Source of the DNA: Chloroflexia bacterium | Lineage (GTDB): Bacteria > Chloroflexota > Chloroflexia > Thermobaculales > Thermobaculaceae | Length of the DNA stretch: 57,857 nucleotides | Direction: 5' to 3' | Assembly (NCBI GenBank): GCA_030446765.1 | Contig: JAUJMR010000012.1 | Location: forward strand, 4,061 to 61,917 | Shown: piece by piece, positions 4,097 through 48,219 of the stretch | How positions within the stretch are numbered: position 1 is the first letter of the stretch | Layout of the letters: each line of letters begins with the position of its first letter | The notes under the pieces: model-generated | Databases searched by the model: none | Seen by the model: only the letters and a program-made list of their open reading frames with translations | What the model was told of the DNA's origin: nothing | Program-made: the position numbers and the translations under genes

Positions 4097-4195
4097 TAAT
4101 TGTTCCCCTAAGATCAGCGTCGCGTCCGGCATCCTGGCTGGACTTCCGGCAGCCAGTCGGACTCTGCGGACCCGCAACCGGGTGTACCGAAGTTG

Positions 4196-4326
4196 GTAAT
4201 ACGGACTCCGAGAGAATAGCAGGGCATCTGTCATTCCCAGCTTGCGAGGAATCCATGGTACGGGCTACGGATCCCTCACTTCGGCTCGGGATGACGCGCC
4301 CCACGGTTCAAACGGATTTCGTATAA
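4196..4326. repeat. Dispersed palindromic MITE-like repeat, copy 1
   Basis: A 131-base element. Its ends are inverted: GTAATACGGACTCCG on the left and, in reverse complement, GTTATACGAAATCCGTT on the right. The centre is a long imperfect palindrome built on GTCATTCC, GAGGAATCC and CATGGTAC opposite CTACGGATCCCTC and CGGGATGAC. Related copies lie near 21992-22092 and 43794-43898. No coding capacity, so a transposase would have to act in trans. Confidence 0.75.
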
Positions 4327-4565
4327 CAGCGTTGTACTGTACGGTGCGTGCGACCTGCAGGACCTTTGAACGTAAGGTACGAGCGTTGCGACAGGCGGCA
4401 TTCGATGTTCTCACATTCGGTGCAGACACCGCGCGATTCCGGATGCTTGACTTAACCAGTGGGCTGTTCTATAAATCACACACACAGGCGGAAGCGCCAG
4501 GCTCGCCTCACGCGGCAGACGTCCCTCGCGCCTTATTGCGCTCCACGGATTCGTCGGAGAGAGAT

Positions 4566-8388: not shown

Positions 8389-8826
8389 CTATACGGTCGT
8401 CTTGCGCAGTTCCCCGATCTGGTCACGCAGCAGGGCCGCCTTCTCGAACTCCATCGACTTCGCCGCCTGCTTCATCTGTGACTCGAGGTCTTTGATGAGG
8501 CGGAACACGTCCTCCTTGCTCAAGGTGGGCGCGGTTCCCGGCGTATACTCCGGCTTGGCCTCGGCTACCGCACGCACGCGCTCCGTGAGGTCACGCACCT
8601 GCTTGACGATCGACGCGGGCTCGATGCCGTGCTTCTCGTTGTATTCCATCTGGATACTGCGGCGCCGGTACGTCTCGTCGATCGCCTTCTGCATCGAGCC
8701 GGTCACAGTGTCGGCGTACATGATCACCGCACCGTCGAGATGCCGCGCCGCTCGCCCGATCATCTGGATCAGCGAGCGATCAGACCGGAGGAAGCCCTCC
8801 TTGTCCGCGTCCAGGATGGCGATCTC
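8389..8826 (-). pseudogene. uvrB: uvrB C-terminal fragment
   Basis: Only the last 140 or so residues of excinuclease subunit B are present: [18 protein letters not shown], the helicase motif VI region [17 protein letters not shown], and the UvrB/UvrC-interaction domain with [17 protein letters not shown] at the end. The stop at 8389 is intact. Upstream, the reading frame loses UvrB similarity at about 8818-8829, where a different gene on the other strand begins. About 500 residues including the ATP-binding site are absent, so as written this is not functional. Confidence 0.88.
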
Positions 8827-9346
8827 TGGCAGGCGCTGGAGCAGTTACGGTGGCACTGTGCTCGCCAGCCACAACAACTGCCGGACGCTGGTCCCGCACC
8901 AGCGACAGTTCAGCGACGAGCAGATCCGTGCGATCGTGGCGCGCGACGGGGTGATCTCGCCTTCCTGCCGGCGTTCGACGAGTAGTTCTGGATGCTGCAA
9001 CGGTGCGGCGTTCGACGGGTGGATGCTGCAACCGGGCTGGGTCCTGGGTATCACGACGAACGAGCAGGTCAGGTTCAGCACTGTCATTGATCACATTGAC
9101 CATGTGTGCCAACTGGCCGGCAACAGCCGGCACGCCGCGCTCGGCACCGACCTGGATGGCGGTTTCGGGCAGGAGCAGTCGCCACGCGACCTGGACACCA
9201 TCGCCGATCTGCCAAAGGTACAGGGGCTGCTGAAGGAACGGGGTTACGGCGAGGCGGACATCCGGTCGATCCTGCACGGCAACTGGCTCCGACTGCTCCG
9301 CCACTCCTGGCAGGCCGCACCCAGCACCAACAGCAGCCCGCCATAA
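8819..9346 (+). pseudogene. Membrane dipeptidase (peptidase M19) C-terminal fragment
   Basis: Reads as the C-terminal half of renal-dipeptidase-like metallopeptidases: LWQALEQ, VLASHNNCRTLVPHQRQF (metal-ligand His), then VIDHIDHVCQLAGNSRHA, GTDLDGGFGQE and HGNWLRLLRH. The N-terminal half with the HxD metal site is missing at the junction with uvrB. The frame changes near 8843 and again in the duplicated stretch 8968-9032. Enzymes of this family hydrolyse dipeptides or related amide and lactam substrates. Broken as written. Confidence 0.82.
8968..9032. repeat. Near-tandem duplication inside the M19 fragment
   Basis: CCGGCGTTCGACG...TGGATGCTGCAA (8968-9000) is followed at once by GCGGCGTTCGACGGGTGGATGCTGCAAC (9005-9032). 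The first copy carries an additional AGTAGTTC stretch with an in-frame TAG in one reading. The family sequence expects only one FDGWMLQ-like segment here. Confidence 0.7.
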
Positions 9347-9466
9347 ATCGGGCCCTTGCTGACAACTCCAGCGTGCGCGCAGATGCCCTCGATTCTCATC
9401 AGTGACTCCTGACGCCGCCTCCCGCTTGTTGGTACGACGGTGAGCACGAGTGCACCTGCAACCCGG

Positions 9467-10257
9467 CTAATCCCGGCTCCACATGTGCCGCAGACTCGGA
9501 CCCCGCACGTGGAACAGCTGTGGCTGCCATCCGAGAATTTCTTTCGCTTTCCGGTTCGTGAACACTCCGTGCGGCAGGTCGGCGTTCACGTTCAGCACCT
9601 CGAATGGCTCGGGCAGGCGTGGCATCTCAAGGGCGCAACGGATCGCCCGCGCTGCGTCTTGCCACGACACGGCGAAGGGGTTCAGCGGCAGGGGTTGACC
9701 CGTCTCTGGCGCGATGAACTCGCAGAACAACAGCGCAGGGATCTCCAGATCGTAGTAGTCGGCGAACACCCGGCAGATCTCCTGACCGAGGTACTTGCTG
9801 TGGCCATACAGGTGGCGCCCAGGGCGCGGTGGCGCATCGGCGGGAACGTCGTAGTCGGTCGAGTAGTCGACGCCGCCGTGGAGGGCTGCCAGTTGCGGCC
9901 CGGTGTGCACGATTCGCCGGATGCCATGGACGACCGCGGCGCGGACGACGTTGTACGCGCCGACCGTGTTCACGCGAAACGCTCCCGATAGTAAATGCCG
10001 GATAACGGTACAATTGATGATGGCATCCATCCCCTCGCACGCGGCCATCACCTGCTCGAGATTCGTCACATCCACCACACGAGACTCATGCGGCGCGCCG
10101 AGCGGTACAGTCACAGGTGCGCCGGGGTTCTGATTGAGTTTCGGTCCGGCAGCGGCGATCTCCTCGATCGGCTCAAGATCCGTCAGCCGCAGCACATACG
10201 TCGATGATAACTCCTCGGCCGCCGCTGCAGCCAGGGGCCCCCGGCACCGAAGATCAC
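9467..10257 (-). CDS. NAD-dependent epimerase/dehydratase-like protein (dehydrogenase 1), frame broken at N-terminus
   Basis: Short-chain Rossmann protein of about 265 residues. The nucleotide-binding start VIFGAGG is in one frame (GTG at 10257) and the rest from PLAAAAAEELSS in another; one indel in the GGGGGCCCC-like run near 10234-10243 joins them. The extended-SDR catalytic pair appears as YGHSKYLGQE (YxxxK) with an upstream VHTGPQLAAL in place of the Ser strand. Closest in style to NAD-dependent sugar or uronate dehydrogenases. It is the last gene of a minus-strand run with dehydrogenase 2, an enolase-superfamily enzyme and a lactonase. The true start is uncertain (10257 or slightly upstream). 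Confidence 0.75.
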
Positions 10258-10371
10258 AACGTTGCGAATTGCCGCCGTGACGAAATCGGCTCGACCGGGC
10301 CGAGTGCCGCGTCCATGCTGATGCCGGTTCCCTGTTCCTGTGGTGGAAGGCCGTTTCGGAGAGGGGCGAAA

Positions 10372-11251
10372 TCATGCCTTCGGCTGATACCCGAAAGGCT
10401 CGCGCCCCGCAGCGGCCAGCCGCACCTTGGCATGCGACCCCGGCGCCGTGATATGGAAGACCGACCATCCCGAAAGATCAAGCTCCAGCGACCGGCGTAT
10501 GCCCGCAACCGCGTCTTCCAGGTGGCAGTTAGCCTACTATCGAGGGTTGGACCCAGCGCCCGTCATAGGGGGTGGACGCGGTAGTCGCGTCGTCCACCAG
10601 CCATCCGAAGCGCAGGCAAATGGCGCTTACATCAGCGTCCCGCATTGCCTCCCGTGCAGAGAGCTCGGCTAGCCAGGGCCGCAGATGCTCGATCCGTGGT
10701 TCCGGACGGGGTCGCCACGTGGCCGGCAACCAGCCGGCACGCCGCGCTCGCTGACTTCCCAACTCGCGGGCAATCGGTCGAACAGAGCCAGGCTGCTCCC
10801 GAAAACAAAGCGTCGCACCCCCGCGTCCAGCGCCGTTGTAGTCAGTGCGTACGTCCTCGGCTCACCTCGTCGAGCGCGGTGCCCTCATCGCCGGAAGAGA
10901 CCGTCAACGGTGCGAGGTGGAGGATGGTATCGACTCCATCGAGCGCCGATCCGACCACTTCCGGGTCGCGCACGTCGCCCTCCACCGCCCGGACGTGCGG
11001 CGGCGGCGACGTGAAGCGCGTGTCGAACGCGACGACGGACGCCCCGCTGGAATCGCAGGTGCGCCGGGTTCTGATTGAGTTTCGGCTGGAATCGCGGTCA
11101 GGACGGCCCGCAGCGTCGATGATAACTCCTCGGCCGCCGCTGGAATCGTTGCGAATTGGCCGTCGAACGCGACGACGGACGCGTCCGCTGGAATCTTGTT
11201 CAGGACGGCCCGGCCCAACAATCCGTCCGCCCCTGTGATCAACACTCGCAT
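10372..11251 (-). pseudogene. NAD-dependent epimerase/dehydratase-like protein (dehydrogenase 2), several frame breaks and an internal insertion
   Basis: The ATG at 11251 follows GGGAGATGAG and overlaps the end of the enolase gene. MRVLITGADGLLGRAVLNKI is an intact Rossmann start. After ASVVAFD the gene is interrupted by about 140 bases of patchwork (11022-11182) and resumes as ASVVAFDTRFTSPPPHV, EGDVRDPEVVGSALDGVD and LHLAPLT. It then continues across more frame changes as TYALTTTALDAGVRRFVFGS, REAMRDADVSAICLRFGW and GWSVFHITAPGSHAKV to a TGA at 10372. The corrected product would be about 250 residues of the uronate/sugar dehydrogenase type. I call it broken because of the insertion, though errors may contribute. 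Confidence 0.72.
11022..11182. repeat. Patchwork insertion mixing pieces of both dehydrogenase genes
   Basis: Bounded by two identical 21-base copies of GTCGAACGCGACGACGGACG plus C (11022-11042 and 11162-11182). Between them lie three blocks copied from the start of dehydrogenase 1: 11057-11085 matches 10115-10144, 11114-11142 matches 10199-10227 exactly over 29 bases, and 11148-11158 matches 10261-10271. The blocks are in the same order as in the source. They are spaced by GCTGGAATC, which occurs four times (11046, 11085, 11139, 11187), and by TCAGGACGGCCCG, which occurs at 11098 and again at about 11200. The spacer motifs belong to the start of dehydrogenase 2. Confidence 0.8.
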
Positions 11252-11254
11252 CAC

Positions 11255-12483
11255 TCATCTCCCTTCGTCGGCTTTCCATCCTAACGCCACCGACTCTACA
11301 CGCGCACACCGAGATCCGGCCGTTGAGTAAAGGATCTTCCCGCCAACGCGGATCTCTACCTCTATCAGGTACCGAGCCGCTTCGGCGAGGTCCGGTGTCA
11401 CGCCAAGGCCCGGCGCATCCGGGACCCGGATGAGACCATCCTCACCCGGCCAGAGATGCTCCGTGGTGACCTCTACTGCCAGGGGGACGGCTCAACCGGG
11501 TACTCGCAGAGGACGTCGTCTTCCAGTCCGGCATATGGCTGAAGCGACGCACTGAGCGCCAAATGCGAGGTAAAGGTATGGTTGACGTACGTGACGCCGC
11601 GCTCCCGCGCGTAGTCTGCGACGCGCTTCGCGGAACCAATCCCACCGATGCGCCCGGCATCGATCTGAATGTAGCGAAGCCCAGCGTGATCGATCATGTG
11701 CTCCGCTATGTGCGGATGGTGGCTGCCCTCGCCACCCGCCAGCTTCACGAGCCCACTCTGAGAGGCAAGCCGCCGATACGCGGCATGGGCGCCGGAGATG
11801 AACGGCTCCTCCAACCAGGTCACCGCATAGTCCTGAAGTATGGGTAGTCGCGCGCTCGCAGCGTCTGCGTCTTCCTTCCAGACCGTCCCGGCGTCGATCA
11901 GCAAGGTAGCGTCCTTACCAAGACCCTCCCGCGCGGCAGCGACCTGCTCCGCGTCCTCCTCGACGCTGCCTTGGCCGAATGGACCCCAGCCGAACTTGGC
12001 TGCCCGGTAGCCTTTTTCGCGAACAGAACGGGCTTTCAGCAACGTCTCGTGCGCGGAGGAGCCGAAGAGCTGCGAGGCATACGGCATCTTCGGATACGCC
12101 CGGCGATAGCCGAGCAACTCGTAGACCGGCGCATCGCGTACCCGGCCAAGCAGGTCCCACATGGCGATCTCAATGCCAGACAGGGTATGGTCGGCCTGCA
12201 ACAGGTCCTGACTGTTCTCGCGCACCAGGTCGGTGATCCGCGCGATATCCGCCGCGTCTTCCAGCCGCTGCCCGAGGACGGATGCGCGGACCGGCTTGCA
12301 CGCACTGTGGGACATGGGACAGACGAGGCTGGCGATGGAGGTCAGCGGTGACGCTTCGCACTCGCCCCATCCCAGTCGCCCCCGACCCTCCAGCCGGACG
12401 AGCAGGAGATCCTGACTCCCATCGCCGATGTCTAGAACTTCGGGCATGGACAGGTAGAAGAAGTCGACGGCTTCGATCTTCAC
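11255..12483 (-). CDS. Enolase-superfamily (mandelate racemase/muconate lactonizing-like) enzyme, one frame break
   Basis: About 409 residues after correcting one lost C in the C-run at 11482-11486; the rest of the protein then continues as VEVTTEHLWPGEDGLIRVPD to a TGA at 11255. An N-terminal capping domain is followed by the barrel: AAKFGWGPFG (the KxK-type strand keeping one Lys), LLIDAGTVW (metal Asp), WLEEPF (metal Glu), LAGGEG (metal Glu) and VNHTFTSHLALSASL (His at the end of strand 7). The family abstracts the alpha-proton of carboxylates and often dehydrates sugar acids. Between a lactonase and dehydrogenases, a sugar-acid dehydratase is the natural inference; the substrate cannot be read from sequence. 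Confidence 0.85.
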
Positions 12484-15785: not shown

Positions 15786-15972
15786 CGATCCCCTCCTACC
15801 GCCCAATGTCTCGCCAAGGCGCTTGGGCTTGGGATGTGGCGCCGGCATCACGGGAAAAGAAAGCGAAACACACCCGCGGGCCTGCTCCGAGACCTCGACA
15901 CGAAAACACCGGCGCCACCGCTAGTCTAGCACACCTCGCGCAGTGCGATAGCAGGGGTAAATGCGCAGTGTC

Positions 15973-16472: not shown

Positions 16473-17741
16473 CTATGCGCTCGGGGCCGCCTCGGACGGG
16501 TTGCGGACACTGCGCACCGGAGAGAAGAAGAGGAGCACGAACCCCGCGGCGACGCCGATGGCACCAACGAGCAGCGTCGCCCGCAAGCCGATCGTACTTC
16601 CGAGGAAGCCCCCGAGCACCGACCCCAGCGGCGCCGCGCCGAACAGCAGGAAGCGCCGGGCGGCCGTCACCCTGCCCAGCAGGCGGGTCGGCGTCAGGTG
16701 CTGGCGCAGGCTCATCTGGTTCACCGACCAGATAGGCCCACCGACGCCCGTGATTACCTGCGCGGCAATAATGGGCGCGAGTGCGGGTCCAACTATACCC
16801 GCGAGAGGAACGACAAGGGCGCTGATCGCCCACAGAGCTTGGCCGAGGATAACCGACGGTCCAGTACCAATACGGCGCGCGACGCGGCCGGCCACGATGG
16901 CACCCAGTAGACCGCCGACGCCTGCGACGGCGTACACAAGGCCGATGGTAGTCGGTGGAATGTCGAGCTCTCGGGTGAAGAAGAGCAACAGCACAGTAGT
17001 CTGGACCGCCGCACCGAATACCCCCACAGTCGCAGCCACGGTCAGCGCTCGCAGGACCGGCGTCCGCACCAGCTCGCGCACCCCCTCGCCAATCTCAATC
17101 CGAAGACTCCGCCGCTGCTCCCGGTTCGGCGACTCCTCGTTGACGCCTACACCCCGGAGCGATAGCGCCGACAGCACGTATGACACAGCATCCACGAAGA
17201 TCGCCTTGGGAGCGCTCAGGACCTGTACCAGTGCACCGGCGGCGCTCGGCCCCGCGATCGCGAGCACCGAGTCGCTGGCAGCGAGCCTGCTGTTCGCCTC
17301 GACCAGCTGGTCCTTCCGCACGACCGATGGCAGCACCGCCACCGAGGCAATCGTGAAGAAGAGCCCCAGCGACGCCGAGGCAAAGGCAACCACGTACAGG
17401 TGCGCGAACGTCAGGGACCCCAGGAGTGCCGCCAGCGGGATCGTACCGAGCAGCAGCGCACGGCCGAAGTCCGCCCCAATCAGGATCGGTCGCCGCCGCA
17501 TCCTGTCCACCCACACGCCGGCGAGGAGACCGAAGAATAGGTTTGGGAGCGAACCGGCGACGCCTAGCAGCCCCATCTGCGCCGGGGTCGCGCTCAGTGT
17601 GAGCACGGCGGTTAGCGGGAGCGCGAGGTTGGTGATCTGTGAGCCGGCGTTCGATATCACCTGCGCAAACCAGAGCCGCACAAACGAGCCGTTGCGCCAT
17701 AGGCTCGCCGTCGCCCTATCAACCGAAGCGCTTTCGTCCAT
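16473..17741 (-). CDS. MFS transporter
   Basis: 422 residues from ATG 17741. Twelve hydrophobic segments; motif A appears as GVWVDRMRRRPILIGADFGR after TM2, and the second half has LRQHLTPTRLLGRVTAARRF. This is the DHA3/MFS_3-like type that exports drugs or other small amphiphilic molecules. Flanked by an integrase remnant and tRNA-Lys, which is compatible with acquisition, though its codon use looks like the rest of the window. Intact. Confidence 0.88.
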   Translation of the reverse strand: MDESASVDRATASLWRNGSFVRLWFAQVISNAGSQITNLALPLTAVLTLSATPAQMGLLGVAGSLPNLFFGLLAGVWVDRMRRRPILIGADFGRALLLGTIPLAALLGSLTFAHLYVVAFASASLGLFFTIASVAVLPSVVRKDQLVEANSRLAASDSVLAIAGPSAAGALVQVLSAPKAIFVDAVSYVLSALSLRGVGVNEESPNREQRRSLRIEIGEGVRELVRTPVLRALTVAATVGVFGAAVQTTVLLLFFTRELDIPPTTIGLVYAVAGVGGLLGAIVAGRVARRIGTGPSVILGQALWAISALVVPLAGIVGPALAPIIAAQVITGVGGPIWSVNQMSLRQHLTPTRLLGRVTAARRFLLFGAAPLGSVLGGFLGSTIGLRATLLVGAIGVAAGFVLLFFSPVRSVRNPSEAAPSA

Positions 17742-17982
17742 CGCCCGCTTCTCACCCGTCTGGTGCCACACCATGACATGTCGCCGATTCAGACTGAGCG
17801 ACTTTACATGTCGGAGTGAGCTGTTTTCGCCCGCACTGCACCGCATGGTAGCAGCAGAAGCCTCGGGTGCAAGCGGCGCGTGGCCGCACCGCCAAAACAT
17901 CCGAGAACGGTTGCTCCAGACGGGGCGACACTAACTGTGTGGTGTCAAACGCCCAAGTCGCGCTCAGTTGCAGACACAAAGC

Positions 17983-18013
17983 AGCCCCATAACCCTAGCA
18001 GTTACGGGGCTTT
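17983..18013. terminator. Hairpin beside tRNA-Lys
   Basis: AGCCCCATAAC and GTTACGGGGCT pair around a short loop, with TTTT directly after on the plus strand and GCTTTG on the minus strand. It lies just downstream of the minus-strand tRNA and could end either transcript. Confidence 0.55.
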
Positions 18014-18020
18014 TACCTGG

Positions 18021-18093
<73 letters not shown>

Positions 18094-18174
18094 GTGCGTT
18101 TGTGACAGTATAGTACACTAGTCCCACTTACAGCGTCAAGCCAGCAATGGCTACGCGACGCGTGCCCCCCAGGC

Positions 18175-18837
18175 ATGTCAGAACGGGACCAGACGCATCC
18201 ACAGAACTGGAGCCACATGGAGCTTGTCAATCAACTGCTCGCCCGCGGCGAGCGTACCGCGATCCGCCGCTTTACCCGTGCCGATGTCGATGAATGGGTG
18301 TCGTGGCCCCGTCATAGAGACCCACTTTTCCAGGACTATAACTCCCCCCATCTCAAGCCGCGCGATCGTGACCTGTGGTACGCGGAGCGCGCGGCGCGGC
18401 CGGATCACGCCATGTACGCGATCCAGGACGCAGACGGACACCTCGTTGGCCGTCTCTTCCTCCGACATATCGACTCCGTACGCAAGAGCGGGGTTTTGGG
18501 CGTGGACCTACGCAGCGACCGGCTCGACCAGGGACTCGGCACCGACGCGCTAAGAGCCTTCAACGGCTACTTTTTCGACGACCTCCAGCAGGACACCTTG
18601 AAGCTCGATGTCGCGGCGTACAACGACCGGGCGCGTCGCGTATACGAGAAACTCGGATGGGTTCGCGTAGGGCAGCACTGGAACACCTACCCCTCCATCT
18701 TCATGCCCGGCGTCTTCGACGATCCCGCCATGGAACCGCTCCGCCCGTTTTTTCGTGCAGGGCCAGGCTCAATAAGCGTGTTGCACTACGACATGGACCT
18801 GACACAGCAACGCTGGCGGGAGGTGAACGGACGATGA
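18175..18837 (+). CDS. GNAT-family acetyltransferase (RimJ/RimL-like)
   Basis: 220 residues. Typical order: TAIRRFTRADVDEWVSW, YAIQDADGHLVGRLFL, VLGVDLRSDRLDQGLGTDAL (acetyl-CoA loop), then LDVAAYNDRARRVYEKLGW. The long C-terminal tail (PFFRAGPGSISVLHYDMDL) is unusual for the family. Target unknown. Its TGA overlaps the ATG of the cinA-like gene by ATGA, so the two are coupled. Confidence 0.85.
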   Translation: MSERDQTHPQNWSHMELVNQLLARGERTAIRRFTRADVDEWVSWPRHRDPLFQDYNSPHLKPRDRDLWYAERAARPDHAMYAIQDADGHLVGRLFLRHIDSVRKSGVLGVDLRSDRLDQGLGTDALRAFNGYFFDDLQQDTLKLDVAAYNDRARRVYEKLGWVRVGQHWNTYPSIFMPGVFDDPAMEPLRPFFRAGPGSISVLHYDMDLTQQRWREVNGR

Positions 18838-19961
18838 ATGGAGAGGTACTCTCTATTGGCTCTGAGATCCTCGCGGGCGAGATCACGGACACAAACGCGA
18901 CGTTCCTCGCACAGCAGTTCGTCACGCTTGGTATTAATCTGCGGCGCGTGACGCAGGTAGGAGATGATCTGGGCGACATCCGCGATGCCCTTGCCTCAGC
19001 ACGCGCGCACGCACGACTCGTTGTATGCACCGGCGGCATCGGTCCAACACCTGATGACCTCTCACGCGAGGCCCTGGCGACGCTGTTGGGAGAGGAGATG
19101 CGCGTTGTGCCCGACTTGGAAACACGGCTACGCTCCTACTTCATCCGCCGCGGAGCCGCTATGCCCGAACGCAACCTAAAGCAGGCAATGCTCATCCCCA
19201 GCGCGGAGGCGATAACCAATCGGTCCGGCACCGCGCCGGGCTGGTGGGTGGAGAGTCAGGGCACGCGCTTCATCCTGCTGCCGGGCGTGCCACATGAGAT
19301 GAAGACCATCTGGCAGGAGGAGTTGCTGCCCCGGCTCATCGGGCTCTCCGGGACCTACACCGCGTCGGAAACCATCAAGACCTTTGGCCTCGGCGAGTCA
19401 ACCGTGGCCGAGAAGCTAGGGAACCTGTGGGAGCAGACGCGGCCGGCGGTCGGTACATACGCGAAGCGAGACGGGGTCCACGTCGTACTGCGCGCTTCGG
19501 GACCAGATCTCGAAGAGGTTCGAGCAACGATCGCCGCGACTGCAGCACAGGTTCGCGCGCTGCTGGGGGACGCGGTCTGGAACTCCGGCGGCGGCACGTT
19601 GACGGAGGAGATCGGTACGTTGCTGCGTAGTTCGGGACTTACCGTTTCGACCGTCGAAGACGCGACCGGCGGGTTGCTCGCGATGGAGCTACGTTCTACC
19701 ACCAGCACGCAGTTTGCCGGCGGTGTCATCGGACAGGGTGCGCCACCGGCAACGGACCTGCTGCTGCGCGTTGGGCCGGCGACCGCGAAAGAAGGCAACG
19801 ACGTGTCGATGGTAGGATGCGACGTCAGCCTGCTTGCGAGCAACGCAGAGGTGGCAACCACGCGCGTACAGACCCCGTCCTCCCCCGTGCTCGCGGATCG
19901 GGCAACCTTCGCGGCGCTCGATCTACTCCGACGCCACCTGCAGGCCACGGTCCCGGACTGA
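18834..19961 (+). CDS. CinA-like protein (molybdopterin-binding-like domain, degenerate C-terminus)
   Basis: 375 residues. The N-terminal COG1058 domain is complete: SIGSEILAGEITDTNATFLA, VCTGGIGPTPDDLSREAL, PGVPHEMKTIWQEELLPRL. The C-terminal CinA/PncC region is recognisable only in part (LTVSTVEDATGGLLAMEL). The SxES(C)TGG nucleophile region reads DATGG and the following YSN-type segment is absent. In complete CinA proteins the two domains give ADP-ribose pyrophosphatase and NMN deamidase activity; here the deamidase is probably lost. Frame intact. Confidence 0.85.
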   Translation: MNGEVLSIGSEILAGEITDTNATFLAQQFVTLGINLRRVTQVGDDLGDIRDALASARAHARLVVCTGGIGPTPDDLSREALATLLGEEMRVVPDLETRLRSYFIRRGAAMPERNLKQAMLIPSAEAITNRSGTAPGWWVESQGTRFILLPGVPHEMKTIWQEELLPRLIGLSGTYTASETIKTFGLGESTVAEKLGNLWEQTRPAVGTYAKRDGVHVVLRASGPDLEEVRATIAATAAQVRALLGDAVWNSGGGTLTEEIGTLLRSSGLTVSTVEDATGGLLAMELRSTTSTQFAGGVIGQGAPPATDLLLRVGPATAKEGNDVSMVGCDVSLLASNAEVATTRVQTPSSPVLADRATFAALDLLRRHLQATVPD

Positions 19962-26249: not shown

Positions 26250-27669
26250 TCATATATGCATCTCTTCCTGGCTTGGCGCGACTCGGGTGCACCTCAAGCA
26301 GATATATGGTGCATCGTGCCCCGGCACCTTCCACCGGTCATCGATACGCCAGCCCATGAGCCATGCGGGCTCGTCGGCAATGGTGAGTAAGGGGACTCGG
26401 CGGCGCAGGAAGGGCGGCACCTTGCGATCCGCCAGGAAGTCCCCGACACGCTTCCCGTGGTTCATGCCCAGCGGCCGGAACTTCTCTCCGGGACGCGCCG
26501 CGCGCAGAACGAGCGGCTCTTCGGTGTAGCGCACGTGCTCGTGCAATCTTCCATCTATCTCGTCCGACGGAAAATCACACCGCCCGTGCGACGCCGACCA
26601 GATCCAGTTCGCGGTCAATCGAGACGGCCGGTCGTCCGCACCATGCAGGAGTGGGGGGTACACCGCGTGCTCCGGCAAATCACCAGTCCAGAGGACGATC
26701 CGATCGGCCAACCGCAACGCACGGAGCCCGGCGGGCATAGTAGCGTCCGCCCACCGGACACCGCTGTGAGCCAGGTCAATCAGTGCAAGCAGGTGGGCTC
26801 GTTCCAAACCATCCAGCGTGCCCGTCAGGTGCCTGGCAGCGAGGCGCAGGGCGCGCAGCTGCACCGCGAGCGGCGTCGAACTCAGCTCGGGAACGTCAAT
26901 CAACATATAGGTGCCGCGTACGTCGACGGCACGAGCGAACAATTCGGCTCCGAAGCTGTCGAGCGCTTCCTCATCACCGCGGAGCGCTTCCGCGGCGTTC
27001 GCGATGTTTCCAACGGTTCTTGCATTGACCCCACCGAGCGCGGGCAAGACCATACGGCGCACCCGGTTCCGGGCAAAGTCCAGTGAGTGGTTGGAGGGAT
27101 CCTCTATAACGGGCAGATCGTTGCGCGCGCAGCCGACGCGAATCTCCTCTGCGCCAATTGATAGAAACGGGCGCACAAGCAAGATGTCCGGGGCGGAGGG
27201 CACGGTTGTCACGGGCTGCATGCCGGCCGCTCCGGTGATACCGGCACCACGCGCCAAGTTCAGCAATACCGTCTCCGCCTGATCATTTTGATTGTGGGCA
27301 ACCACCACCACAGCATCCAACAAGCGGGCGGTGTCGGCAAGGAAGCCGTAGCGGACGGCACGCGCGGCCGCTTCCAGCGACAGGCGCAGATCACGAGCAA
27401 CGGCGTGCACGTCCGCAGTGCCTACGGCGAGGGGAATGCCGAGGCTTTCGGTCCAAGCTCGCAGGGCAGGTGCCTCACACTCGCTGCCCTGACGCAACCC
27501 GTGATCGTGCAACTCTATACCGTGCGCGGCAGTTGATGCAGGAGGTACACAAGAGCGACGGAATTCTACCGCCGCTCAGGCCCACGAGTACGGTACGACC
27601 GTGGATCGCGGCAAGCTGAGCACGGGCGGTGTTTCGGAGCCGTACAAGGAGCGGATCGGTAGGGAGCAT
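26250..27669 (-). CDS. tilS: tRNA(Ile)-lysidine synthetase, catalytic N-terminus disrupted
   Basis: Start ATG 27669 (MLPTDPLLVRLRNTARAQL). From DHGLRQGSE on, the protein is well preserved: VVAHNQNDQAETVLLNLARG, IEDPSNHSLDFARNRVR, a C-terminal domain with RAARPGEKFRPLGMNHGKRV and the final TilS-C fold. In the first 55 codons the ATP PP-loop SGGxDS is only SGG, followed by two or three frame changes (27520-27590). LHVAHVDHGLR appears as LHDHGLR, four residues short. TilS makes lysidine-34 on tRNA-Ile(CAU) and is normally essential, so either errors cluster here or the enzyme is damaged. Confidence 0.88.
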
Positions 27670-27824
27670 CCAGGAGTGATCCAGACATCAATGTGGTGGC
27701 GAGGGTGAGGCGAACTCGGACTGTTGTTTTTGCGAACTCGCTACCGCTGAGCCGCTGCAGACCAAGTATACCGGCGCCTGAGATCGGGTCAATATGCCCA
27801 GCGACGGTACAAGAGAGGAGGTCC
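27670..27824. other. Intergenic region upstream of tilS
   Basis: About 155 bases with no gene. No clear promoter pair for tilS is seen. Confidence 0.3.
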
Positions 27825-27870
27825 TGTTGGTGAGTGGGATCGAACCCACGCGGACAGCTGCCTCTGCTCC
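27825..27870 (-). pseudogene. tRNA 3'-end-like fragment (T-arm and acceptor strand only)
   Basis: On the minus strand CGTGGGTTCGATCCCACTC reads as a tRNA T-arm, followed by ACCAACA as an acceptor 3' strand. The T-loop is one base short, consistent with one C lost from the CCC run. No matching 5' acceptor strand (TTGGTGA-like) or anticodon arm lies in the preceding 100 bases, so a full tRNA is not present. It lies about 80 bases from an insertion sequence. The tRNA identity cannot be told. Confidence 0.4.
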
Positions 27871-27953
27871 ATCCCGCGTCGTTGTCGCACTGGCGACACT
27901 GCTAGGGCTCCATTCGGAGGGTGTCAAGGATCGTAAGTAACGGAGCTTGTAGT

Positions 27954-40124: not shown

Positions 40125-41009
40125 TTATCCCTTGACCGCACCCGCCGAAATGCCCTCGATGAAGTGCCGCTGCGCAACAAAGAAGAGTACCAGCACTGGT
40201 AGCATCACGAGCACCGAGCCCGCCATCCACAGGTCCCAGCGGCTCTCCAGACCCGGCGCTTTCAAGAAGCTCGCGAGCCCGACGGCAAGCGTGTACTTGT
40301 TCGGATCATTCAGATAAATCAGCGGCGTCAGGTAATCATCCCACTTGGCAACGAACTCGAAGAGCAGGACGGTGACAATCGCCGGACGGACCAATGGCAG
40401 CATGATGCTCCAGAAAATGCGGAAGTGCGACGCCCCGTCCACCAGGCCCGCTTCTTTCAGGTCGTTCGATCGTCAGGAAAACTGCCGCAGCATGAAGATG
40501 TAGAACGCAGAACCGAACAGGTTCGGTACCCACAAGGGATAGTAGGTATTGATTGCCCCGAACTGACGCCAGATCAGGAAGACCGGCACCATCATTACCA
40601 CGCCGGGCAGCATCATAGTCGCGAGCACGAGTGCGAACAGCGGCCGCTTGAACGGGAAGCTGAGCTTCGCGAACGGGTACGCGACGATCGCGCTACTGAG
40701 CGCCACGGCGATTATGGCCAGCGTCGTGACGAACGCGGTGTTCAATGTCCAGCGCAGAAAGTCAGTCTGCTCGAACACGTCAACATAGTTCTGGAACCTG
40801 ATCGGATTCGGTATCCATTCCGAGGTGAAGATCTGAGACGGAGTCTTGAGGCTCGTCGCTACCAACCAGTAGAACGGCAGCAGAAACGTAACAGACAGAA
40901 AGGTCAGCACCGCGTACAGAATGACCCGACCGACGGTTATGCCTCGCCCTCGAGCGTTGGGATACCGAACCGCCAGATGGGCGCCTGTGGTGCTTTCTCG
41001 GCTGCTCAT
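40125..41009 (-). CDS. Carbohydrate ABC transporter permease (MalG-like), one frame break
   Basis: About 295 residues. Begins with a cytoplasmic tail, then ILYAVLTFLSVTFLLPFYWL; the periplasmic loop TPSQIFTSEWIPNPI is typical. The frame changes at about 40475 between FYIFMLRQF and the conserved EAA loop, which reads AGLVDGASHFRIFWSIMLPL. Ends YLNDPNKYTLAVGLASF and the last helix. Its ATG overlaps the stop area of the partner permease. Confidence 0.85.
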
Positions 41010-41980
41010 TTACTCTCCCTCGTAATAAACCCAACGCTTGACAACCAGAATTGGAACAGGGTGAATGCGATAATCACGACAAACAGTATCCAGGCAAGAG
41101 CCGACGCATAGCCCATCCGGAAGTAGCTGAACGCGGTGTTGAAGAATTACATCAGGGTAGAGTAGCGCGGCGTTTGGTGCTGCCCTCCTCATCAAACAGC
41201 ACGCGGGACTGCGCGAACGTTTGCAACGCGGCGACGATGCCGACAACGGTGGCAGAAAAAGAGCACCCGGGAGAGCATCGGCAGGGTGATATGGAATGTC
41301 CGCGACCACCAGCCGGCGCCGTCTATATCGGCCGACTCGTATAGCTCTCTCGGGATATTCTTCAGTCCCGCGAGGTAGATAATCATCGCGTTGCCCGCAC
41401 CGCCCCATGTGACCATCAGGCCGAGCGCCGGCATCATCCAGTTCGGGTCAGTTGTCCATCCCGGTGCGGGAAGGCCAAGGGGCAGTCAGACCCTGGTTCA
41501 GTATTCCTCCCTGCGGATTGAGGATAAACTTCCACAGGATGGCCATAGCCACCACAAGTGACCGACGGCAGGTAGAAGAACGTCCTCCAAAACGGCACAC
41601 CGCGAACCCGTGTGTTGAGCAACATCGCCACGCCAAGTGCCGAGACGATGTGCAGCGGCACATAGATCACGGTGTAGTACGCGGTGTTGATCAGGGACTT
41701 GCGGAATAAGTCGTCCTGCGTCAGTATCTCGGTGTAGTTAGCGAGGCCCGTCCACTCGGCCGGTTCGAGAACGTTGTAGTTAGTCAGGCTGAAATAGACG
41801 GAAGCAGGGCCGGACCCAGAGTAAAGACGAGGAACCCGATGATCCACGGGCTGATGAACAGCAGCGCGACGATTGTTTCGTACCTGGCTTGTTTGTCGAG
41901 ACCGGACCCAGTGTTGAGCGTCGCCGCAGCGGTCGACGCGCCACCGTCCTGGACTCCGGTCGTCTGCCAGGTGCGCGCAT
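41010..41980 (-). CDS. Carbohydrate ABC transporter permease (MalF-like), several frame breaks
   Basis: Pieces in order: MRAPGRR start (41980, uncertain), GLDKQARYETIVALLFISPW, VYFSLTNYNVLEPAEWTGLA, NYTEILTQDDLFRKSLINTA, GVPFWRTFFYLPSVT, MMPALGLMVTWGGAGNAMII, the EAA loop NIPRELYESADIDGAGWW, and the end KRWVYYEGE at 41010. All elements of the family are present across about six frames; the corrected length is about 320 residues. It forms the inner-membrane channel with the partner permease. The ATPase is not in the window. Confidence 0.82.
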
Positions 41981-42039
41981 CCTGCCCTCCCGTCAAATGC
42001 AGCGGGACGCGTGAGATGCTCCCTGCGTCCGCCCTGGCC

Positions 42040-43548
42040 CTAGCTCTTGTAAAACTTGTCGAGTGCCCTCTGGGCCTTCTGCTGTGCATCCTTCATCGCC
42101 GCGTCCGGCTTCTTTGAGCCCTGCAGCATCGGGTCCACAGCCTCCTGCTGGAGGATGTCCGTGATCTCCTTGAGGACCGGTGACGCCGCTACCTGCTTGC
42201 TCTGCTCGAGTAGCTGGGGGGAAGAGCTTCCACCGCCTCATCGATCGCCGGCCGCGTCGGGTGTACACCTCTTCGCGGAGCATCTGGTCTGCGACTTTGT
42301 TGGCAGGAGCGATGGGATATAGACGCCCTTTTTCCGCTCCACTTCCTTCTTCTGTGCTTCCCCGGCCTTGCGCCAGATGTCGGCATCGGACATGAGATGA
42401 ACTCCCACGCCGCTTCCTTGTTCTTTGCTCCCTTGGGGATCGCCCAGGCGTTGCCGCCGCTCATGGAGATAATGTCGCCGTTCTTGCCCTTGGAACGGCA
42501 GGACCTGGAACTCCATGTTTCGATTGCCTTCGGCGATGATACCCATCAGCCAGCTTTCAAACAGCGTCATGACGACCTGGTTCTTAACCGAAGAAGTTCT
42601 GTGGTCCCGGAACTGTGTGGTCCAGGAATGCCTTGTATGGACGGAAGCCGCCTTGAACATTCATTGTCTCGACGGCATACCTGAGCGCCTCAATGTTCTC
42701 AGGAGTGTCGAAGGTGGCGGTTTTGCCATCCTCGCTCAGCAAGCTGCTGCCGTTGCCCCAGGAGTACATCCAGAGGAAGCCGCTCTGCACCTTGGTATCG
42801 AAGCCCCAGCGGGTAATCTTGTTGCCCTGCTTCTTCGTGAGCTTGCCATACTGCTGCAACTGCTGCCAGTTCGACGTGTCTATGTCCTCGACCTCAATGC
42901 CGGCCTGCCTGAGGGGCGGAGGCTGACAAAGAGCGGTCGGGCGTCCATGAACGTGGATCGCCCAGGTCTGGCCCTCGTACTGCACCTCCTTGACGGCGGC
43001 CTCATAGAAGTTGTCGAGCTTGAAGCGGTCGTCGTTTTTGATCAGATCGTCCATCGGCTCCGGGGCATTGCGCGCAGCCCGGCTTGAGCACGGTGTTCCG
43101 GCCCAGCCAGAACAGGTCCGGCACGTCACCGCTCGCGACAGCCGTTAGTATTTTCTGATCGTCGATCTCCGGTGCCGCCTTGAGGGTGATATTCGGGTAC
43201 GCCTGCTCGAAAGCCTGCACGCGCACCCTGGCCGTGGTATTGTCCGTCCCGAAGCCGAAGCGGGAGACGGTGGCCTTCTCCTTGAAGCGGGGCTTCCAGC
43301 CGGAAACGTTGGTCGTCGCCACCGGCGTTGGCAGCGGTCCCTCCGTTGCGGTGGGATTAGCGCCAACCGCCCCTCCCGTCGTAGAGGTCGCACCGCCGGT
43401 TGTATCGTCACCGCCGCAAGCCGAGAGGATCGGCGCGGCGAGAGAGGTCACGGCAAGCGTGCCGCTCCACTTGAGCACCTGCCTGCGGGGTGACCTTCGA
43501 ACCGCTGATAAAATCGTCGAGACGCTGTTCCGGCTTGAGTTCGCTCAT
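42040..43548 (-). CDS. Sugar-binding lipoprotein of the ABC transporter, several frame breaks
   Basis: ATG 43548 with GAAGGAC upstream. Near residues 19-46 a signal with RRQVLKW and the lipobox LSAC is followed by a linker rich in Thr, Gly and Pro. The family-1 binding fold follows: FGFGTDNTTARVRVQAFEQA, YPNITLKAAPEIDDQKI, ASGDVPDLFWLGRNTVLK, WLYSWGNG-like WMYSWGNGSSLLSEDG and the end ALDKFYKS at 42040. At least four frame changes (near 43085, 42590, 42480 and 42240). Expected to capture an oligosaccharide outside the membrane. Confidence 0.85.
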
Positions 43549-43793
43549 CGTATGTCCTTCCCACTACTGCCCCACCAATCGAGTGCACGTGCGTCGCATC
43601 TGCATCGAAATAGCATAGGCGATACGGAAGACCTTTGCTGCCCCAGGAGAAACACGGATAGCCACAGGCTAACATGGTTCTAACGTATCACACAAGCAGG
43701 CCTATCGTTGCCCGTCGTCGACCACGCCGCGGCCCCGTTACGGACCCTTGGATCGACAGGACGGTGTAATGCGCAATCTGGCTGGATGATGAT
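43549..43793. other. Upstream region of the ABC transporter operon
   Basis: About 245 bases with no gene that I can support; presumably holds the promoter of the minus-strand transporter genes. No clear -35/-10 pair found. Confidence 0.3.
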
Positions 43794-43898
43794 GCTTGTC
43801 ATTCCGACCGCAGTGAGGGATCCGTAGCCCGTACCACGGATTCTCGCACGCTCTCGGAATGACAGATGCCACACCGTTCAACCGGAGTCCGTATAACG
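43794..43898. repeat. Dispersed palindromic MITE-like repeat, copy 3 (inverted relative to copies 1 and 2)
   Basis: Contains CTTGTCATTCCGACC, GAGGGATCCGTAGCCCGTAC, CACGGATTCTCGCACG and TCGGAATGAC, ending CCGGAGTCCGTATAACGG. The two halves pair as GTCATTCCGA/TCGGAATGAC and GGATCCGT/ACGGATTC. Its reverse complement aligns with copy 2 from its TATACGGACTCCGG end. Confidence 0.75.
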
Positions 43899-43926
43899 GT
43901 ACACCAGTTCGACGTCGCATCGCGCG

Positions 43927-44572
43927 CTATGTTCGCCGTAAGCGAGATGGCGCTGGAGCAAGATAATACGTGAGTGCCTGCAGTGCCGAAACTGGATCGA
44001 TGTCATAGACCCGCACGTCGCTCGGCACGCGCAGCACGGCGGGGCGTAGTTCAGGATGGCCTTGACGCCGGACTCCACCAACGTATCGGCCACCTCCTGC
44101 GCGGCGGAGGCGGCACCGCGATGATCGCGACCCGCACCTGCATCGCACGGATGCGCTCCGGCATAGTGGTACATCCTCAACGACCACGTCATTGAGCGTC
44201 GTGCCGATGCGCTCCGGATTGTGGTCATAGACCCAGGACAACTGAAAGCCATGTTCTGAGAAGCCGCCATACCGGGCGATTGCCCGCCCGAGCGGGCCAG
44301 CTCCGACGACAACCACGCGATACCGTTCGTTGATGTTCAGGATGTCGCGGATCGCATCGAGCAGGTGCGGGATGTTGTTCTCTCCCCTGCTTGCCGAACT
44401 CCCCGAAGTACGACAGGTCAGCTGAATCTGCGCCGCTGTACTGCCGGTGGCAAGCGCGCCTTGAGGAAACCAGTCTCTGACCCGGCGCGTTCAGCATCGC
44501 CGTGAGGCGTGCATAGATAGGCAGTCGCTTGATCACAACGTCCGGTATGCTGATGTCGGGTTCCAAGACCAT
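43927..44572 (-). CDS. rex: Redox-sensing transcriptional repressor Rex, several frame breaks
   Basis: ATG 44572 gives MVLEPDISIPDVVIKRLPIY, and the winged-helix part continues ARLTAMLNAPGQRLVSS and, in another frame, SSASRGENNIPHLLDAIRD. The NADH domain reads YRVVVVGAGPLGRAIARYGG, VYDHNPERIGTTLNDVVVED and, after frame changes, AILNYAPAVLRVPSDVRVYD with IDPVSALQALTYYL near the end. Corrected length about 215 residues. Rex senses the NADH/NAD ratio and represses anaerobic or fermentative genes. It follows the surface-glycan genes in the same direction. Confidence 0.82.
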
Positions 44573-44714
44573 AACCCTGACTGCGGTGGAGGCGTACGAA
44601 CTGGCGGATGGCGGCATGGCGAATTCGGGGAGTACGATACCCAAAGCGCACAACTGCTCCAAGTGGTGACGCAGACCCTCGCAGCTAGACGGCAAGGGGC
44701 CGGTTCGCGTATGT

Positions 44715-45816
44715 CTAAGAGAAGGATAACAGAAAGCAGTTGCACACGCAGTCAGCGGTTCCCAAGGCGCGCAACCCCGCATCCCGGGTCATCTGACCGG
44801 GCGGGACCTCCATGGAAGACGCGGGCGGCGACCCGGTGCCGACATGTCCACTCCGTATGCGGTGCAGCGACAGGTGGTGCGTGCTCCAGTAATAAATCCC
44901 CAGAGTGTCACAGGCAGTACAAGGACCGCGTGCAGAACGAGGACGTATCCGGTGGCAAGCTCGCGATCTGCGGGGCCAATCCAGTCCCACTAGCACGCGC
45001 AGCGCGCCAACTCGAACGATCCGACATAGCCAGGGCGTTTTTGGTACGAGCGTCGCGAGGTTCGTCACGGCTAGCGTGGAGTTAATATGATCGCCGCCTG
45101 ACCCGAGATCGAAGGCTATTGCCAGGGTCCAGTACATACCCGCTTCAAACAGCCAAGCCACCACTGAGAGCACAAACCCCAGGCTAAGCACCCGCTGGCT
45201 GCGCACCACGCGCAGCCCTGCGAGGAAGCTACCGCCAGCACCTTCCAGCCGGGCTAAGACAGAATCCGGCAACCGTCCAGTCACAGGCGAGAGCAGCCGA
45301 GCACCTTGTCGGGCCATGACCAGTAACACCAGCGGCCAAAGCCCCACGAACAACAGACCACCCGCGACTAGCGCAACCCGTTCAATCGCGCCATTGGGAA
45401 CGAGCAACGCCCCGATCGCGAGCAACAGCAGCATCGTCGCTGCGTCGAGCAGTCGCTCCACGACGACGGTACCGAGTGCGGATGCCTTCGGGATCCGCTC
45501 ACGCTGCGAGAGCACGTGTACACCCGCACCACCTCACCCATGCGCGCCGGCAAGATGTCGTTCGCCATAACCGATGACCACTACAGGGAACAGGGAGGAG
45601 ACGGGGGAATCTGCCCATCGGGGTGAGCAGTAGGCGCCACCGGACCGCGCGTACCCAGACGCCGGTGAAGTACAACACGAGCGCGGGGACCACATACCAG
45701 TACTGTGCTTCAGCGAGTGAGCTAGCCGTTTGTGTCAGATCCTGGCCGCGCAACGCCAGCCAGAGGAAGAACGCGCTAACGAGTATGCTGCCCCAGAGCC
45801 TCAGATTCCTCAACAC
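44715..45816 (-). CDS. Flippase-like integral membrane protein (UPF0104/LPG synthase TM domain), frame breaks
   Basis: GTG 45816 with AGGGCGG upstream. Many hydrophobic helices: SILVSAFFLWLALRG, WYVVPALVLYFTGVWVRAVR, MANDILPARMGEVVRVY (the signature loop of this family), SALGTVVVERLLDAATMLL, VVAWLFEAGMYWTLAIAFDL. Frame changes lie near 45510-45590 and 44990-45060. The family moves lipids or lipid-linked sugars across membranes or modifies phospholipids. In line with the glycosyltransferase-like genes upstream, a lipid-linked glycan role is the likely inference. Confidence 0.75.
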
Positions 45817-48219
45817 CCGCCCTTTCTACCACTGCACCCAAGTCTAGCACGTTGCCGAGCGCAGCATCCGCGACGTAGACCCGGTTGCCACGTGGTGAGA
45901 CCGCAACCCCCAATGGTTCCAGCAAACTCGCCCTGCCTCCGCATTCCCGTCCACCTCCGCGAGGAGCACGCCGGACGAGTACTTCTCCAACGACTTTGTG
46001 ATCGGATTCGTGATGTACACATTCCCCGAACGGTCCGAGTCCAGATACGGCTCCAGCCTGCCCTCCTCCGCCCAGGTCGTCACTCCCCACGACCGTAGAT
46101 TCTTCCCCTGGGCATCGAACACCTGCACGCGCGCGCGTTGCGCGTATCCGCGACGTACACCACGTTCCGGCGGTCGACCGTGATCCCAACCGGCTCATCG
46201 AGTTGCGACGGCCCTGACCCGGCATCGCCCCACTGACGCACATACCTGCCGGTCTGGTCGTACACCACAACCCGCTTGTTCCCCGTGTCGGTAACGTACA
46301 GCAGTCCGTCAGGACCAACCGCCAGACCTCGCGGTCCGTAAAGCCGCGCGGCGACTGCGCGCCACGCCTTGGATCACCCTTCGTGTCCACGTAGCTACCC
46401 CATGCCAGGACGAACTCCCCTCCGTCGTGAACTGCTGGATCGGTGGTTCCATGTGTCTGCGACCCAAACGTACCGGGACGTTGCCGCAATGCCAGTCGGT
46501 CCCAAGGTCGCCAACGAGTAAGCAAATTGCCCCTCGCCTGCACCGCGCGATCCCCACTGCTTCAGGAAACGGCCGTTCGGCGCGTACTTCTGGACGCGAG
46601 CGTTCGCCTGATCCACCACGTAAAAATTCCCCTGAGGATCCAGGGCGAGGTCCACCGGACCGTTCAACTGACCAGGCCGGTTCCCGGGCGGTGCGTAGTC
46701 GAAGAGATCATATTGCGCCTTCAACCCCGGCTCCGTCGCGCCGACCGCCGGACTGATCTGTCGCCATGTTCGGACGTCCCACGAGAGCGTAACATCGCCG
46801 ATTTCCTCCCGCAGTGGGACCAGGACTTGTTTTGGCGCGACGAGGTGGTCAGTCCACAAGCACCTCGGCACGGCCACCCGATCGCTGCCCGACGCGGACG
46901 TCCTCGAAGTCGCGCAGATACCACAGACCCCACGGCGCCAGCTCCGGCGCCAGGTCGACTTTGAGCCCGCGTCCACCGCGCGGCTCCGCGAGACTGCGCT
47001 GCAGGACATACAACTCGGCCGATACCCGGCGGACCCGGTCAAACGCCGCGCGAACCCCGATGGGTGGTACGCTGTACGCGCTCGTTCCGCCCGGTGCATA
47101 CAGGAGCGGCGCCCTGCCCTGACCGGCAACTGCCGACGCGCCCACGAGCACCAAAATAACCGCGCTGGCCATCGCCAGCGGAGCGCCCGGCCAAAGCGTC
47201 CCCAGCGTGCGCTCCAGCAACCACGCGGCCGCGAACCCCGTGAGTAAGACGGCGGTCGATGGGGGCGGTCGAAGACCAGCAGGAAGCGCCTGCGCGAGTA
47301 TGAGAACGAGAACACCGAGCCCGGCGAGCGCGAAACCGGGGGTAAGTGGCCGCCTCGCTCGGCCATACGAGACGACGAGAAGCACAAGCCCAACCGCGAG
47401 CGCCCACACCGACGCGGAGAGGCCGACCTCACGTATCCATGCTGCGAGCCCAACCGGCGGGCTTGCGGCCGTATCACCTGGGAAACGTGGCGGGCGCGTG
47501 AAGAACGCGGTAAGTCCCACAGCCGCCGCAGTCCCGAAAGCCAGAAGGGTGAAGCCCACACGCCGTGGCCGCCATGCCCGGCGCACGGTGTAGACGACAA
47601 AAACGACGAGACCGCCGCTCAGCCACAGGCCCGGCGCGCCGAACGATAGGAGAAAGCCCGCAATGCCTCCGGCGCCTGCTAATGACCAGGGCCACCAGTG
47701 CCGAGTCACCGCGAGCGCCGCCCCAAACAGCGCCAGGCAAACCGCCACCGCGTCCGGACCGCCATTGGAATCCAGCGTGATCCAGTACGGCGAGATTGCC
47801 AATAATAACGCGGCGAGCAGTGCCGTCGTCCGTCCCAGCACTCGCGCAAGCGGCAGGCAGAAGAGCACGGAGAGCAACCCGGCCAGGGCGGACAGCACGC
47901 GTGGCGTGACATCGTTCGCTCCAAGTCCGAACATCGTGAGGGCAAGTGTCTGCACGTACCCCGGAGCCGAACGATACGACGCGGCCGGCTCCGCGTGGCC
48001 GGTAAGCAATCGCCAGGCATCGAGCGCATACCCGGCCTCATCGGCCGTGAGCGGCCCGCGCTCACGTATCTGCAGCGTTCGGAGCGCGAGCCCCAAGGCG
48101 ACGACGAGCCAGAACGCCCGGATCCACGGTATGTGGCGGAGGCTGCTAACAGGACGGGCATCAAGCCCATGCGCTTGCCGGGCTCCGCCGGCCGGAGGTA
48201 AAGTGTCGCTATAGACCAC
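45776..48219 (-). CDS. GT39-like membrane glycosyltransferase fused to a C-terminal NHL-repeat propeller, frame breaks
   Basis: GTG 48219 lies 3 bases after the stop of the Agl23-like gene. The first 450 residues have the PMT/ArnT-like form: RTLQIRERGPLTADEAGYAL (the acidic D-E loop after TM1), then about ten membrane segments, then a soluble part LAPWGLWYLRDFEDVRV. Past a frame change at about 46850 the chain continues with NHL repeats: LNGPVDLALDPQGNFYVVDQ, ARVQKYAPNGRFLKQWGSRG, VQVFDAQGKNLRSWGV, LDSDRSGNVYITNP. About five frame changes occur between 45840 and 46850; the end is uncertain (45776 to 45810). Total about 800 residues. Confidence 0.75.

Follow-up and report, generated by a model that had tools for sequence, protein, structure and literature searches.

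The window, by which we mean the whole stretch of DNA that was analysed (57.9 kb, G000:C52:4061-61917, part of one scaffold), carries an NAD(P)-dependent epimerase/dehydratase-type gene with two Epimerase (PF01370) stretches, which is split by inserts and frameshifts (Table 1). The parent genome G000 is a MAG of 4.08 Mb in 110 contigs and is 89% complete. It was compared with assembled sequences, one genome per species, including the sister genome G001 and the same-genus genome G002, in which the relevant contig (JACDAU010000391.1) comes from a Chloroflexia MAG. At similar or lower completeness, G000 exceeds its two congeners (2.9-3.0 Mb) by about 1 Mb, a difference that fits the presence of some strain mixture or foreign contigs.

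The G002 counterpart of the affected gene (L006:1444-3024) is a single continuous open reading frame (ORF) of 526 aa that contains no insert. Seven more distant relatives, which come from MAGs labelled Chloroflexota, Armatimonadota or 'bacterium', likewise align at full length along the uninterrupted gene and carry no insert. Because G002 and these seven relatives hold the gene as a continuous ORF, the two neighbouring, paralogous dehydrogenase genes recognized in the initial annotation are, on this sequence comparison, one two-domain gene cut by frameshifts; sequence from the beginning of each of its Rossmann halves is brought together in the mosaic. No second intact copy of the gene was found elsewhere in the MAG.

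Table 1. Positions in the window of the features discussed in the text.
Feature	Position	Strand	Remark
Two-domain NAD(P)-dependent epimerase/dehydratase-type ORF, split by inserts and frameshifts	9467-11251	-	Collinear with the intact G002 ORF, 78% DNA identity; two PF01370 stretches
Mosaic insert, 140 nt	11022-11161 (equivalently 11043-11182, given the 21-nt flanking repeat)	-	Lacking in G002 and in the seven further relatives
21-nt flank, copy 1, GTCGAACGCGACGACGGACGC	11022-11042	+	Identical to 11162-11182
21-nt flank, copy 2, GTCGAACGCGACGACGGACGC	11162-11182	+	Identical to 11022-11042
Mosaic block from 10114-10144 minus one homopolymer base	11056-11085	+	13 + 20 nt exact
Mosaic separator like 11184-11212	11082-11110	+	86%, inexact
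Mosaic block equal to 10199-10227	11114-11142	+	29 nt exact
Mosaic block equal to 10260-10271	11147-11158	+	12 nt exact
Source region, start of second Rossmann domain	10114-10271	-	
25-nt insert	10523-10547	+	No source identified
26-nt insert	10721-10746	+	
Insert of ~45 nt in dipeptidase gene	8957-9006	+	Includes imperfect copy of adjoining sequence
Junction of uvrB 3' part with dipeptidase-gene interior	8820-8827 (between 8822 and 8825)		6.4 kb of G001 missing
Indel-dense patch wrecking two tRNA-Met genes	27500-27933		Both genes found in G001 and G002
Indel-dense patch	40460-46860		72 small indels relative to G001 in 40-48 kb

The two identical 21-mers enclose 119 bases. Letter-by-letter comparison bears out the earlier description of three ordered blocks between identical flanks at 11022-11182, one of them a 29-base identity. 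The blocks stand in the same order as in the source region, at what had been called the start of dehydrogenase 1. Five more bases upstream of the last block match the source as well, but only with a 2-nt indel at 10272. The whole insert can be aligned collinearly with the start of domain 2, with domain-1-like sequence filling the gaps. Within these intervening stretches, TCAGGACGGCCCG at 11098-11110 recurs at 11200-11212; the longer separator of which it is a portion matches the local gene imperfectly. Other separators are GCTGGAATC words, which occur four times on their strand in the entire window, all at the mosaic locus. On the coding (minus) strand, GATTCCAGC has one native copy and three in the insert, with no others on that strand of the window. 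One separator, CTGCGGGCCGTCCTGACCGCGATTCCAGC, is similar but not identical to the local gene, and would fit an allele of a second strain.

To judge the significance of these repeats, we generated 500 first-order Markov shuffles of 8801-11300 and examined 41 further 2.5-kb stretches of the window for comparison. The longest local repeats observed measure 29, 21, 20 and 20 nt, compared with a maximum of 18 nt among all shuffles and 16 nt in the 41 other stretches. The words at the junctions within the mosaic are ~9-10 nt long. The insert lacks the 2-nt indel that the source copy carries relative to G002, and it is short of one homopolymer base that the source copy retains.

Relative to G002, the gene carries seven frame-breaking lesions within ~1.7 kb. 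Besides the mosaic, these comprise small indels at 10235, 10272, 10379 and 10855 and two inserts, at 10523 (25 nt) and 10721 (26 nt), that the initial annotation had missed. The latter lies within a 37-nt segment (10714-10750) that is a 92% copy of 9108-9143 in the dipeptidase gene, on the same strand. Two single-base frameshifts also interrupt the neighbouring MR_MLE-type gene. Despite this damage, dN/dS relative to G002 is 0.13 for the two-domain gene, with zero in-frame stops over 510 mapped codons, and 0.12 for the MR_MLE gene. On these codon comparisons, the two-domain gene appears to have been under purifying selection until very recently, which is a poor fit to slow pseudogene decay. 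An old pseudogene under relaxed selection, for which a dN/dS near 1 and in-frame stops are expected, is ruled out by these values.

The same observations bear on the proposal that gene conversion or unequal recombination has occurred between the homologous Rossmann halves of a decaying pseudogene. Both halves belong to one fold family and the tract looks like an alternating conversion tract, but outside the mosaic the halves lack the long DNA identity that would support such exchange; a DNA alignment of the two runs only through the mosaic itself. Moreover, the mosaic is a net addition of 140 nt with no replacement, purifying selection is still visible, and the dipeptidase piece at 10721 cannot stem from the other half. 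The added sequence and the dipeptidase-derived insert rule this candidate out in practice, and we regard it as the least probable of the explanations considered.

Close to the gene, the 3' part of uvrB is joined to the interior of the dipeptidase gene. In the sister genome, which is 94% identical here, the same two points lie 6.4 kb apart; between them, the remainder of uvrB is followed by an aldo/keto reductase, rho, a second aldo/keto reductase and the start of the dipeptidase gene. When sought in the whole MAG, this 6.4 kb was not found save for a weak 66% match on C43. The G001 contig that covers this part also stops here, at the point matching window 9035. The absence of rho, most of uvrB and the two aldo/keto reductases is probably due to a false join.

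Other parts of the window differ greatly in quality. Over most of its length there are 0-1 frame-changing indels per kb relative to G001, whereas the density reaches ~8-13 per kb at 26-28 kb and 40-46 kb. The first of these patches contains mostly deletions; many small ones leave two tRNA-Met genes unrecognizable, and one ORF measures 420 aa compared with 479 aa in G001. In the second, insertions and deletions are mixed, and 31 of the 72 indels at 40-48 kb lie in homopolymer context. The broken ORFs of this second patch should not be taken as pseudogenes. Across the 135 kb of G000 that were aligned to G001, 14 one-kb bins carry at least six frame-changing indels per kb.

The scaffolding of the MAG is also informative. 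Its scaffold gaps are exactly 100 N, and 4 of the 24 are flanked on both sides by identical 55-mers, which we take to be the signature of a k=55 short-read graph. A plain artefact of such a graph is an unlikely source of the mosaic, given junction words far shorter than the 55-mer gap overlaps. Just after a 100-N gap, L123 carries tandem versions of one 1.1-kb stretch (17332-18414 and 18640-19790) that are 91% identical overall, with larger gaps. This arrangement suggests that two strain variants were concatenated and that strains are mixed. We counted 45 pairs of short-range duplicates in 662 kb of G000 compared with six in 554 kb of the sister genome; the 45 include some genuine coding repeats, scaffold overlaps and parts of the L123 tandem stretch.

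Clusters of 18-32-nt duplicates that resemble the mosaic were observed at L118 18714-19879, L121 18604-19325 and L124 6653-7132. All three are no more than candidate artefacts; relatives match the surroundings of the L121 and L124 clusters only partially. A repeat cluster in L119 was set aside as a genuine coding repeat that is present in G001.

The indel-rich patches, the loss of rho and most of uvrB, the 100-N/55-mer scaffolding, the tandem versions and the low dN/dS despite frame breaks lead us to read the mosaic as an assembly (consensus) artefact in a MAG patched from mixed reads, which we consider very probable. The initial annotation put template switching or gene conversion between paralogues first and named a mixed-read consensus as its alternative; the evidence favours the latter. 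Gap filling from noisy or mixed reads in hybrid and metagenome assemblies is a known class of assembly error. Like the present case, such errors yield accurate stretches broken by indel-rich patches, split ORFs, false joins and tandem variants; the difference here is the unusually neat, ordered alternation of two halves of one gene. Some observations count against an artefact: the indel density at 9-13 kb (2-4.5 per kb) is below that of the worst patches, the 25-nt insert could not be matched to a source, and the simulation described below leaves some features of the mosaic unreproduced.

For the favoured consensus artefact, the following course can be envisaged. Accurate contigs would have failed at the locus, leaving a gap to be closed with a handful of noisy and/or strain-mixed reads. 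Those from the starts of domain 2 and domain 1, ~900 bp apart, may then have been aligned to one another, so that the consensus path would hop between them at short common words (GATTCCAGC, CAGC and CGAAAC). The outcome would be ordered blocks from both domains, with a 21-mer doubled at the edges. The differences between insert and source, a 2-nt indel and a homopolymer base, would fit simply two independent imperfect renderings of one DNA. What kind of reads, which assembler and which step were involved is our inference.

This proposal was examined by simulating the partial-order consensus of noisy domain-1 and domain-2 reads, mixed in equal numbers (2+2, 3+3 and 4+4) or as 6+1. Equal numbers gave consensus sequences with one to five switches, and exact pieces of both domains of at least 15 nt were present in 29 of 36 runs. 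No mosaic formed in the 6+1 mixture, where one kind of read strongly dominates, and none of the mixtures reproduced the duplicated 21-mer or the three extra GATTCCAGC copies. The mosaic had rightly been judged more orderly than a random mis-assembly, but ordered blocks also result when two segments are merged by an alignment-based consensus. A consensus is able to produce an ordered mosaic, relatives lack the insert, and low-quality patches exist elsewhere in the assembly.

Short-range template switching and templated insertions are described for DNA replication and repair (e.g. PMC7954356). A real, recent burst of serial switching in the cell (MMBIR/FoSTeS-like or slippage-type repair) would account for several features of the locus. 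A stalled strand would have repeatedly invaded the start of domain 2, ~900 bp away, and gone back to GATTCCAGC; like events would have placed the dipeptidase piece at 10721 and deleted the 6.4 kb. The insert does look copied from a nearby template with short homology at its junctions. The blocks are ordered, on the same strand and from within ~1-1.7 kb, several events are clustered, and lesions of very recent date would be consistent with the low dN/dS. However, at least four large events and several 1-2-nt frameshifts would be needed in 2.5 kb, in addition to the loss of rho and most of uvrB, and the insert lacks an indel that is present in its supposed template. Unrelated patches of the same contig also carry dense indels that destroy tRNA-Met genes. 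As in the processes described in that source, short pieces of neighbouring sequence are copied and joined at short common words; the difference is that the lesions here occur together with indels that have no template and with a join that looks false. We therefore consider switching in the cell improbable. If true, it would represent serial same-strand short-range switching in a free-living bacterium, with templated inserts of 25-140 nt and a 6.4-kb deletion across 2.5 kb, and would offer a rare glimpse of switching events clustered in a bacterial genome.

End joining that depends on Ku and adds templated insertions was also considered and rejected, as no match to Ku (PF02735) was found in G000, which is 89% complete. 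Switching might instead have taken place during amplification in library preparation, with the chimeric molecule then faithfully assembled. Such a molecule would account for ordered same-strand blocks joined at words too short for a k=55 graph to connect unaided, but normal molecules should outvote a rare chimera wherever coverage is not very low, and the indel-dense patches would be left unexplained. We consider this origin more doubtful still than switching in the cell.

If the mosaic is a consensus artefact, as we favour, an orderly mosaic arising from assembly can imitate gene conversion or template switching. The apparent loss of rho and uvrB and the broken tRNA genes in this MAG should likewise not be taken as biology. 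The affected gene itself resembles other two-domain NAD(P)-dependent epimerase/dehydratase proteins (PF01370 twice; ~526 aa in G002) that are conserved in Chloroflexota and Armatimonadota MAGs, but its window copy, as assembled here, is broken.

The window also contains two dispersed repeats. One of ~130 nt, at 4190-4335, folds into a long hairpin (-59.9 kcal/mol, z -4.2) and gave no match when compared with Rfam. Counted over 664 kb of G000 and 554 kb of G001, it has ~33 and 28 matches, respectively, with many copies in G002, and is possibly a REP/MITE-like element of this genus. The second, at 15825-15932, is rarer and matches several contigs of G001 and G002.
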